The notes beneath the pieces were generated by a model. That model was not told where the DNA came from, made no database searches, and saw nothing but the letters and a program-made list of their open reading frames with translations. A stretch of DNA of 52,739 bases from a virus. The translations under genes and the position numbers were made by a program. The stretch is from positions 1 to 52,739 of IMG/VR virus record IMGVR_UViG_3300049489_000263; one strand, 5' to 3'. Positions within the stretch are counted from its first letter, which is position 1. The number at the start of each line of letters is the position of its first letter. Shown piece after piece: positions 1 through 49,637 of this stretch.

Positions 1-87
1 GTAGGATAATCCTACACTCACGCACGGCGTCTTGACTTCTGACCACTTAAGTCCCGCCTAGCCTTGCCTGATACTTGATATCAAGAA

Positions 88-133
88 TGTGTGTGTGTGT
101 GTGTGTGTGTGTGTGTGTGTGTGTGTGTGTGTG
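88..133. repeat. (TG)23 dinucleotide microsatellite
   Basis: An uninterrupted run of 23 TG units. It is bracketed by a perfect copy of the dispersed palindrome (69-83) and a one-mismatch copy (132-146). The reading frame through it gives only alternating Val and Cys and is not a gene. Such runs are rare in phage genomes and can form Z-DNA or slip during replication. Confidence 0.95.
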
Positions 134-158
134 ATCTCGGATATCAGGAGTTGTGTGT

Positions 159-234
159 CCAAACCGGGCCGCGTTGTGTGGGAGTACACGATGGCTAGAT
201 TTGGGCCAAACCGGGTCGCGCTGTGCGGGAGTAC
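159..234. repeat. Pair of 29-bp direct repeats
   Basis: Copies at 159-187 and 206-234 differ at three positions. Both begin CCAAACCGGG and end GGGAGTAC. They are part of the repeat-rich leader before the rightward mini-operon, and may be protein-binding or origin-type repeats; nothing in the sequence decides this. Confidence 0.85.
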
Positions 235-298
235 CCTAGGGCAGCGCCAGGTCGCACGGGCGTCGAACTAACACGCAAACAAACCCACCCAGGTCGAT

Positions 299-396
299 CA
301 ACTATTAACATGGGTCAGTCTCGACTCTCATCCAACTATTAACATGGGTCAGTCTCGACTCTCATCCAACTATTAACATGGGTCAGTCTCGACTCT
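299..396. repeat. Three tandem 34-bp repeats
   Basis: Units start at 299, 333 and 367 with a period of 34 bp; the third lacks its last four bases. Within the shared part the copies are identical. Each carries CTATTAACATGGGTCAG. There are no spacers between units, so this is not a CRISPR array. They lie about 230-320 bp upstream of the gene at 622, and could be iterons or repeated regulator sites. Confidence 0.9.
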
Positions 397-438
397 GGTC
401 GCCTAGCCAGGTCTCGACACAAGTCAACGTGATCGTGC

Positions 439-470
439 GTTAACTTTGCCAGGCCGATTTCAGAGTATCA
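439..470 (+). promoter_or_regulatory. Degenerate GTTAAC/palindrome promoter-like module
   Basis: GTTAACTTTG at 439-448 is followed 10 bp later by an imperfect CGATT...TATCA dyad ending at 470. This resembles the tighter modules at 11318, 25870 and 26259. It points rightward towards the gene at 622. The match is weaker than the other three, so a promoter role is only suggested. Confidence 0.35.
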
Positions 471-621
471 GGCTTGACGCCTGCGCCCCGATCGTGAGAC
501 TACGTGCATGACGCCAAAGGCCCGACTTGAGCGACCTGCCGACTGCAACGCTAGTTGCGGGCGGGCCGCCATAAGTGGCCAAGCGTTAACAAACCCGGCT
601 CAAGCCGGAAGGACGTGCACC

Positions 622-47460: not shown

Positions 47461-47981
47461 CGTACCTCCTGCTTGATCCACGACGTTAATCGCGGAACTG
47501 CTGATGGCCAGTGTTCTAGCACATAACTATAGAAAGCCCGTTGACCAGCTACTAGGGCGGCCCACATGGCTTCTCTCCTCGACCACTGATAGACTCTGAT
47601 ATCAAAATCTAGCCGAAAGATAGGTCGTTCTTTTGTACCATAAGTAAGCGTGAACGAACGCTTACCATATTCTTCTCCAAGGTCAGGGCCGCGAGTTAGC
47701 GACTTCCTCCATGTGCCACCCGGCGTGAAAGCGCCTTTCTGCGGGCCACGTTGAGGACGAATTGCTGATCTCGCGCCAGTGAGCATCCGTACCGCTCTGG
47801 CGAGAGGTAGTACGGATGCTCTAGACATACCAGTATCGATATGGATGGCTGGCAATGCAGCTTTCACGAACTCTCTAACAGCCTCATTAAAGAGTTTCGT
47901 CATATTTTTATGCAGGTCACGTGTGAAGGTGCCTACATCGGCTTTCAAGGGCCTATACCTGATTTTGAGCATCGTTGCCAC
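47457..47981 (-). CDS. HK97 gp10-like tail completion/minor tail protein
   Basis: 174 residues from the GTG at 47981; an ATG nine bases on is also possible. AGGAGG lies 3 or 12 bases upstream, respectively. TRDLHKNMTKLFNEAVREFV, then PAIHIDTGMSRASVL, resembles the DTG region of gp10-like proteins, and RRSFTLTYG-like strands follow. Its 5' end overlaps the chaperone frameshift product. It is unusual in lying between chaperones and tape measure. Confidence 0.68.
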   Translation of the reverse strand: MATMLKIRYRPLKADVGTFTRDLHKNMTKLFNEAVREFVKAALPAIHIDTGMSRASVLPLARAVRMLTGARSAIRPQRGPQKGAFTPGGTWRKSLTRGPDLGEEYGKRSFTLTYGTKERPIFRLDFDIRVYQWSRREAMWAALVAGQRAFYSYVLEHWPSAVPRLTSWIKQEVR

Positions 47982-48605
47982 CAGCCTCCTCGAACAACCT
48001 GAGTTGTTCGTAGCCCAGGATCATCGCCTTGATCCAGGTATCGCAATCATCGAATGAATCTGCGACACCTGGCGGCCGGATGCTCAATCGCTCACACGCA
48101 CGCCAGATCACATACTCTGACGTGCGGAAGTCTGGATAGATGGGTCTTACGCTTGACCCACTCCAGCTAAAAAACGCTTAGTCGCTTCCTCGATACGTTT
48201 GGTCGATAGGCCGTTAGCGTCAATAGCCGCATTGATGATCGCTACGATTTCGGTGTCTGAGAACCCCGAAGCCTTGAGATCGGCGGAGTAGTTCTTCCAG
48301 GTACCTGGATCAGTAGTGACCGAGTCCCATTCCAGACCTTCGGTGGCCCGCAGCGACTCGATGATGATCCACGACATGCGTGTCTCAGCGTAAGTTGTTA
48401 CGGCCGCTTGATACTGAGTATCATTCACGTCGCGGGCAGTAGTGCCATCCTTATACGCGATGACAGGAGCTTCTGGCTCCTTAACGATGGACTCGAAACG
48501 TGATAGATCAACGACCCCACACCTAAAAACCAAGTCGCCATCCTTGCGTGGGATAACGACGACTTCTGGGGCAGGCTTGTTGATGGGCTTACCAGCGAGC
48601 TTCAT
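47953..48605 (-). CDS. Tail assembly chaperone frameshift fusion (GT-like)
   Basis: The 152-codon G-like frame ends at 48147. At 48174-48168 the minus strand reads T TTT TTA in phase (codons CGT TTT TTA), a classic -1 slippery heptamer. The -1 frame then stays open for about 70 codons to the TAG at 47953-47955. Its peptide has a convincing protein sequence: VRPIYPDFRTSEYVIWRACE, then TWIKAMILGYEQLRLFEEAG. This is the arrangement of gpG/gpGT in lambda and many siphoviruses: most ribosomes make G, a fraction make GT. The T part has no start codon of its own. Confidence 0.85.
48147..48605 (-). CDS. Tail assembly chaperone (G-like)
   Basis: 152 residues. GKPINKPAPEVVVIPRKDGD opens the protein, followed by a helical region (YQAAVTTYAETRMSWIIIES, ATEGLEWDSVTTDPGTWKNY) and IEEATKRFLAGVGQA at the end. 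The last ten codons hold the frameshift site. It lies between the tail tube protein and the tape measure, as expected for the lambda G type. A strong hairpin terminator precedes it, and a perfect palindrome copy (48409) lies within it. Confidence 0.8.
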   Translation of the reverse strand: MKLAGKPINKPAPEVVVIPRKDGDLVFRCGVVDLSRFESIVKEPEAPVIAYKDGTTARDVNDTQYQAAVTTYAETRMSWIIIESLRATEGLEWDSVTTDPGTWKNYSADLKASGFSDTEIVAIINAAIDANGLSTKRIEEATKRFLAGVGQA

Positions 48606-48620
48606 AGGAGCCTTTCTGAA

Positions 48621-48647
48621 AAGCCGGCGGGTAAGGACCCGCCGGCG
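48621..48647 (-). terminator. Terminator/attenuator between tail tube and chaperone genes
   Basis: A 10-bp GC stem GCCGGCGGGT/ACCCGCCGGC with loop CCTT is followed on the minus strand by TTTTC. It would reduce transcription past the abundant tail tube gene into chaperones and tape measure. Confidence 0.8.
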
Positions 48648-48656
48648 TTAGTGGTT

Positions 48657-49157
48657 TCAGGGTGACTGAGCAGCACGAACCGTGGTCGCGTACTTGGCAT
48701 TGCACTTGCCAGAGCAAGTGATCTGACCGGCACGCGGATCATGGTCGAACGATTCCCACCGGAAGTCAGGCAGGGTGATCGTTTCCTTGTCCGAAGACGA
48801 GCAGTTCGGCTCGTAGGTGACTTCGATATCCACGGCATACGGGCGGCAAGCGTCCGAGTCCGTCGAAGTCCAAGCCGAAGCCGCGCCGATCTTCTTGAGA
48901 GCATCCTCAACGCTGGGAGTGCCAGTCGTCGAGAGAGCGCCCTTGATGTATTCCCAATTGAAGGTGAAGTTAACGTCCATCGGAACGTCATCGCCTTCAC
49001 GCACCTCGTCGATCACGCCTCGATCGAGCAGATACTCCATGTTCCGCTTCTCGGAGAACGTCAGGTTGCCATCACCGATCTTGATGGTCAACTCGTGCGG
49101 AGTAGTTGCGCCGTCCTTGATCTTCATAGTGCAGTGTTTGAGACTAAGTCTGGCCAT
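48657..49157 (-). CDS. Major tail (tube) protein
   Basis: 166 residues. TIKIGDGNLTFSEKRNMEYL, DDVPMDVNFTFNWEYI and ITLPDFRWESFDHDPRAGQI form the beta-rich tube fold; the GDG-then-DVPMDV pattern recalls siphovirus tube proteins. Position before the chaperones and after the terminator-like protein supports it. Four Cys near the C-terminal half are odd for a tube protein. Confidence 0.75.
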   Translation of the reverse strand: MARLSLKHCTMKIKDGATTPHELTIKIGDGNLTFSEKRNMEYLLDRGVIDEVREGDDVPMDVNFTFNWEYIKGALSTTGTPSVEDALKKIGAASAWTSTDSDACRPYAVDIEVTYEPNCSSSDKETITLPDFRWESFDHDPRAGQITCSGKCNAKYATTVRAAQSP

Positions 49158-49160
49158 GCG

Positions 49161-49637
49161 TCATACCTCCAGGTACATTTCGTAGTGAGCCTCCACAGTA
49201 GCCTGCAACAATGGAATTGCTGGGTCGATTTGACCGAAGTGATTCGTTTGAATCCTCTCTCGGTTCCTAATATCCTGGATTAACTCCAGGCAGCCTAGTA
49301 GCGTCTGCGTGTCATCGGTACTTGCACCGTACTTATACACTGGAATGGTGTCGGTGAAGGCTGCGGCCACGTCACCGACCATTCTATGTATAGTGTGATA
49401 CGTAGTATCAGTGATCACGCTTTGCGTCAAGACGCTAAGCTCGATGTATAGACGCCAGAAGTCCTTGCTCTCCTCGGTGTAGTATGGGCCATCCATACGT
49501 ATTTCCACCAAGTTCTCAGGCTCTGCGGGTGTTCGACTTTGACCTTCGATGAATACTTGATATTGCGTCAGCCTATCAGATAGGTGCTTACTAATTGATG
49601 CAAATATCCAACGAGCCCAGTGAGGATTTGCACTCAT
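49161..49637 (-). CDS. Tail terminator/head-tail joining-like protein
   Basis: 158 residues. HWARWIFASISKHLSDRLTQ at the N-terminus and DFWRLYIELSVLTQSVITD resemble phage tail-terminator (minor tail U-like) proteins. Its place directly before the tube gene fits. Assignment from position and fold pattern only. A perfect palindrome copy (49396) lies inside. Confidence 0.62.
   Translation of the reverse strand: MSANPHWARWIFASISKHLSDRLTQYQVFIEGQSRTPAEPENLVEIRMDGPYYTEESKDFWRLYIELSVLTQSVITDTTYHTIHRMVGDVAAAFTDTIPVYKYGASTDDTQTLLGCLELIQDIRNRERIQTNHFGQIDPAIPLLQATVEAHYEMYLEV

Follow-up and report, generated by a model that had tools for sequence, protein, structure and literature searches.

Noc of Bacillus subtilis, which carries a membrane-binding N-terminal amphipathic helix, has about 70 binding sites in the whole chromosome (PMC4331003). 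KorB of plasmid RK2 is a CTPase clamp that loads at palindromic OB operators and slides over kilobases (PMC11790492). Here we describe a 52.7-kb viral DNA, positions 1 to 52,739 of IMG/VR record IMGVR_UViG_3300049489_000263 (the window, meaning this whole stretch), in which palindromes of the form TGATAYNNNRTATCA recur roughly once per kb, and a phage-encoded ParB-like protein, ParB1, that is likely to read them. The arrangement resembles that of Noc in its predicted ParB-family protein with a helix-turn-helix (HTH), in palindromes scattered over the genome and in an apparent lack of need for ParA. Noc sites are palindromes of 14–16 bp that serve as nucleation points for spreading; unlike them, the phage palindromes occur about once per kb, have an unrelated sequence and stand in a lytic phage context. 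With KorB the phages share a ParB-family protein and several palindromic sites on one replicon, but KorB operators lie upstream of promoters, which are silenced together with KorA, whereas the phage sites are mostly within genes and often regularly spaced. ParABS likewise has a palindromic site and a ParB-type protein, here a candidate reader, but its one or few sites lie near the origin, whereas the phages have tens of sites genome-wide and ParA (PF13614) was found in 0 of 20 phage genomes at E≤0.1, with 14 of 14 controls positive. Partition, which an earlier reading made from the letters of the window alone (the sequence-only reading) had considered, is disfavoured on both counts. Overall, the working parallels that the phage system would be most like are Noc, for its scattered sites, and KorB, for its sliding clamp. 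In the literature searched, no account of dispersed sites paired with a phage ParB protein turned up.

A pattern search of the window returned 19 perfect sites spanning positions 69 to 49410, the same count and range that the sequence-only reading had given, and Y and R adjoin the arms in all 19 of the TGATA-N5-TATCA sites. All are given without strand. Sites at 11284–11298, 11794–11808, 16943–16957, 23869–23883, 27722–27736, 29997–30011, 35030–35044, 38619–38633, 39126–39140, 48409–48423 and 49396–49410 are also perfect in the nearest relative, G001. Those at 3944–3958, 33611–33625, 37389–37403 and 39593–39607 have one mismatch there and that at 19809–19823 has two. The pattern search further yielded the sites at 69–83 (TGATACTTGATATCA), 2168–2182 and 24798–24812, the last overlapping the 3' end of the ParB2 gene. 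Near-copies of the 12-position pattern numbered 29 with one mismatch and 33 with two, and 32 copies had one mismatch in the 10-position arms. The palindrome family of the earlier reading thus stands, with its figure of about 27 one-mismatch copies raised to about 30 and its genome-wide density of one site per 1.1 kb corrected to roughly 1.0 kb.

Order-4 Markov sequences yielded 0.1, 1.1 and 10.4 copies at zero, one and two mismatches, respectively. Within genes, 16 perfect copies were observed as compared to 0.65 (maximum 3) in synonymous-codon shuffles, the codon-preserving control that the sequence-only reading had named. In a de novo scan of all palindromes with 5-bp arms and gaps of 0–12, TGATA-N5 stood far ahead of the rest with 19 copies, and the runner-up, with 9, was the same site shifted. 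Genic sites occur on either strand, 34 in minus-strand and 7 in plus-strand genes, which matches the coding length per strand, and they occupy the two reading frames in which no in-frame TGA arises. Sites are also found across gene ends and in intergenic DNA, a placement that agrees with what had been read from the letters. Outside the arms the copies have no sequence similarity to each other, and they are therefore not copies of a dispersed element or mobile repeat; each must have been made and kept in place.

The relative G001 (IMG/VR 3300037851_000332) shares 80.3% nucleotide identity with the window over 40.6 kb. Identity was 94.4% at the ten fixed bases of the sites, 80.0% at the five central bases and 79.7% in the flanks. 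Out of 39 alignable sites, 30 were kept in G001, as compared to 17% of decoy palindromes with permuted arms. The conserved arms and positions rule out chance and coding bias. The palindrome arms are under purifying selection, and the claim of the earlier reading that selection acts on the DNA is borne out by conservation of site positions in a relative, the comparison it had proposed. It is nearly certain that the sites bind protein, and the evidence fits the suggestion, made in that reading, of a dimeric binding protein.

Relatives were collected by searches with the DNA polymerase (17310–19613, minus strand) and come from viral metagenomes, with almost none among cultured phages. About 40 of them have a genome-wide palindrome family of their own in which the sequence or the spacing is changed, and the density in many is 0.6–2 sites per kb. 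In the 54 kb of L030 (record G025) the family is TGATTcTAgAATCA, and TGATT-N4-AATCA occurs in 67 perfect copies; in the 94 kb of L025 it is TTGATA-N4-TATCAA, where perfect TGATA arms number 42. Other families are TGATTCCGGAATCA in L138, TGATTTA-N-TAAATCA in L129 and L210, TGATTT-N3-AAATCA, TGAGT-N4-ACTCA in L103 and L117, and TGAT-N6-ATCA in L094. The sites accordingly characterise an entire lineage of phages, among which their sequences diverge, a point that the sequence-only reading had missed. A well-supported clade of the polymerase tree, comprising 46 rows, lacked palindrome sites. The counts leave out apparent palindromes rich in CG (L113, L228 and L020) and the long repeat of AGCTA in L098, all of which are simple or ordinary repeats.

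Spacing of the sites was more regular than random in 18 genomes combined (Stouffer z=-5.2). Taken singly, about ten of the 18 reached P<0.05 or came near it, the window included, although the regularity of the window itself is modest (P=0.03). The longest gap was significantly short in several genomes, for example L030 and L138 (P=0.001 each). As the sites lie in genes about every kb and are regular in many genomes, loading along the whole molecule fits better than control of specific genes. Among phages, the closest parallel in how sites are distributed and how they diverge is offered by the stoperators of Cluster A mycobacteriophages, where transcription is halted by a repressor that occupies many positions; these are short dispersed sites that diverge between subclusters along with their reader (PMC6550527). 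That the phage palindromes, which likewise diverge between related phages, are such stoperators or operators is quite improbable, since stoperators are asymmetric, mostly oriented in one direction relative to transcription (PMC6550527) and serve an immunity repressor in lysogeny, whereas the palindromes are symmetric and mostly within genes. Dense, regular sites within late operons would also block the phage's own transcription. A tyrosine integrase was detected in just one of 20 genomes, which carries no sites, and no repressor is common to the site-bearing genomes. XRE/HTH_3 repressors were searched for as readers and rejected on this account, HTH_3 scoring above the cut-off in 2 of 20 genomes. 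The parallel therefore fails on symmetry, orientation and lysogeny, and the transcription-stopping role that had been suggested is disfavoured by the symmetry, by the occurrence of sites in genes of both directions and by the lack of a tyrosine integrase in genomes with sites. A small HTH_3 gene at 11172–11387 of record G025 (L030), which overlaps the start of the primase gene, was seen in that phage only.

ParB1 (20011–20811, minus strand, 266 aa) was found in 93 of 93 members of the first polymerase set and is the proposed reader of the sites. It has a ParB_N domain (E=1e-10) followed by an HTH_ParB domain (E=1e-4), and its sequence matches Spo0J (E=2.6e-18) as well as ParB, Noc and KorB. 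The AlphaFold model (predicted local distance difference test, pLDDT, 91.7) matched ParB, Noc and KorB in Foldseek, with a best E of 4e-11. On sequence and predicted fold, ParB1 is thus assigned to the ParB/Noc/KorB family by its N-terminal domain, HTH and ParB fold. In 36 relatives G56, R59, N93 and R96 are invariant and R58 and E92 nearly so; the conserved positions G56–R59 (GxxR) and E92–R96 (ENxxR) are what we take to be the two motifs of a cytidine triphosphate (CTP) pocket. The model opens with a strand at residues 2–6 without a leading helix, and an amphipathic N-terminal helix was not seen by eye. The ParB1 gene of L020 (record G015, 35834–37588) codes for a protein of 584 aa with a large intein-like insertion, which sits exactly at the conserved Asn-Cys-Arg-Gly motif.

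The presence of sites was found to follow one residue of this protein. The modelled recognition helix of ParB1, residues 129–140 (20392–20427, minus strand; PGWVQIRGMYLA), conforms to SxGWVQ[VI]R in almost every site-bearing genome and includes Gln133. Enrichment of GAT-N6/7-ATC, scored by counts against phase-matched other gaps at P<1e-3, was observed in 43 of 57 genomes with ParB1 Gln133 versus 0 of 65 without it. In a scan of the genomes outside the site-less clade, Gln133 gave the strongest association (p=1.1e-11, the next being 1.1e-8) among 12,967 residue tests that covered seven core proteins. When the trait was simulated along the polymerase tree, the strength of the Gln133 association was reached in 1 of 2497 runs. 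L024 (record G019), which has Arg in place of Gln133 (GWVRIR), carries the non-GAT palindromes TTAACTTAAGTTAA and is an ideal natural specificity switch. Residue 173 contributes to specificity in ParB and Noc (PMC7383237). ParB1 residue 129 aligns with it, and Gly or Pro at this position accompanies GATA half-sites (p=7e-4, with one exception).

A host protein as reader is difficult to reconcile with site presence that follows a residue of a phage protein. Dispersed host palindromes read by Noc, MatP or SlmA do exist as known families, and the phage sites could imitate motifs of this sort that organise the host chromosome, such as matS or Noc sites. In the one site-bearing metagenome-assembled genome (MAG; L218, bin of 3.6 Mb), however, just 14 matches occurred, of which the phage contig held 4, a second contig 9 and the rest of the bin 1, and we consider host mimicry very improbable. 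That second contig with 9 TGATA-N5-TATCA sites, C149 of MAG G051, may be another phage of the group or AT-rich DNA. A search for hosts via genome contigs gave seven loci in MAGs of unrelated phyla, and no host was assigned.

Several observations weigh against ParB1 as the reader and against genome-wide loading. Gln133 aligns with ParB residue 177, which lies outside the listed contacts. Independent-pair contrasts on the tree numbered just 3–4, all concordant, which is too few for significance, and a further two or three columns passed the tree simulation as well, among them polA 461 (0 of 2497; numbered as scanned) and ParB1 220 (4 of 2497). With polymerase distance removed, a partial Mantel test between motif distances and protein windows tied fine motif variation to no protein. 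Fourteen Gln133 genomes, L009 among them, had no clear GAT enrichment; other or weaker palindromes occur in at least three of them, L103, L117 and L019. A prior inspection of these alignments moreover steered the analysis, although the residue ranking itself was unguided. Spacing was not regular in several genomes, including L103, L088, L010, L019 and L024, and L019 (record G014) has a 13.8-kb site-free gap in an otherwise site-rich genome; this stretch could be newly acquired DNA. On account of the thin phylogenetic independence, the other surviving columns and the null partial Mantel test, ParB1 is likely, rather than shown, to be the reader of the palindromes.

The Mantel result, which points to no single protein, can also be read in favour of another phage-encoded reader with the same genome organising role, whether ParB2 (24810–25793, minus strand), the 216-aa protein at 23999–24649 (minus strand) or a small unrecognised DNA-binding protein, which if fast-evolving could escape homology search. 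ParB2 is likewise ParB-like by a ParB_N match, adjacent and conserved in 15 of 15 whole records, but in the same 64 genomes its best column reached 6.9e-5 as compared to 2.1e-9 for ParB1 Gln133, making it the less likely reader. Gene families present in all site-bearing genomes are core replication genes only, and a search for a gene in all of these but not in L009/G004 gave none besides the core genes. Open reading frames of the ParB2–primase intergenic region have nothing in common and were rejected as a source of the reader. Together with the scarcity of HTH_3, this makes a phage reader other than ParB1 rather unlikely in our estimate. Among the three ParB-like candidates of the sequence-only reading, the one at 20011–20811 is now favoured. 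ParB2 is set back by the absence of a comparable association, and the protein at 622–1530 was found only in the window phage and its closest relative and has no family match.

Binding could also serve modification rather than structure, the palindromes being targets of a phage methyltransferase or nuclease, as a DNA methyltransferase is encoded in the window at 30345–31205. This enzyme is, however, missing from several site-rich genomes (G014, G020, G025 and G027), and restriction targets are usually avoided rather than enriched and evenly spaced, so that we give this explanation hardly any credence.

We consider it somewhat probable that the palindromes are bound by a symmetric dimer which the phage encodes, most likely ParB1, and which loads as clamps that coat the genome. 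If ParB1 behaves as characterised members of the ParB family do, its dimers would load at the palindrome through the HTH, close as a CTP-dependent clamp and then slide onto neighbouring DNA. With a loading site every 0.6–1.3 kb, clamps would come to cover the whole replicating genome with no ParA motor. Such a coat would organise, mark or protect the genome, candidate purposes being compaction, segregation of concatemers and shielding from host nucleases or silencing proteins. The ParB-like reader and possible genome coating raised by the sequence-only reading are compatible with, and in part supported by, the evidence above. More tentatively, and as a possibility that we would not yet expect to hold, these uncultured, apparently lytic phages may have converted a ParB-type clamp into a coat that organises or protects the entire genome, with selected loading sites about 1 kb apart that are rewritten when clamp specificity changes, that is, a viral chromatin with sequence-defined loading points. 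If true, this would be a genome-saturating, ParB-type nucleation in a virus, about 60 times denser than Noc sites and without a ParA motor, in which protein and site visibly co-vary over roughly 40 genomes. The phages would provide a natural data set on joint change in the specificity of a DNA-binding protein and in hundreds of dispersed sites, and the role of many phage ParB-like proteins would become directly testable with one purified protein.

ParB1 is encoded within a replication module, and DNA polymerase A, the two ParB-like proteins, an SNF2-like helicase (21280–23220, minus strand), the 216-aa protein and a DUF5906 primase (26311–28968, plus strand) are common to 15 of 15 whole records. 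The 216-aa protein, which adjoins ParB2 and has no PHROG match, is possibly a single-strand binding protein. An INPHARED nucleotide search with the first 25 kb of the window returned no relative. Among the window genes searched, tail and replication genes were recognisable and no capsid, portal or terminase was seen; the record may be a fragment. In the early region a tRNA-Leu gene is predicted at 8942–9016 on the minus strand.

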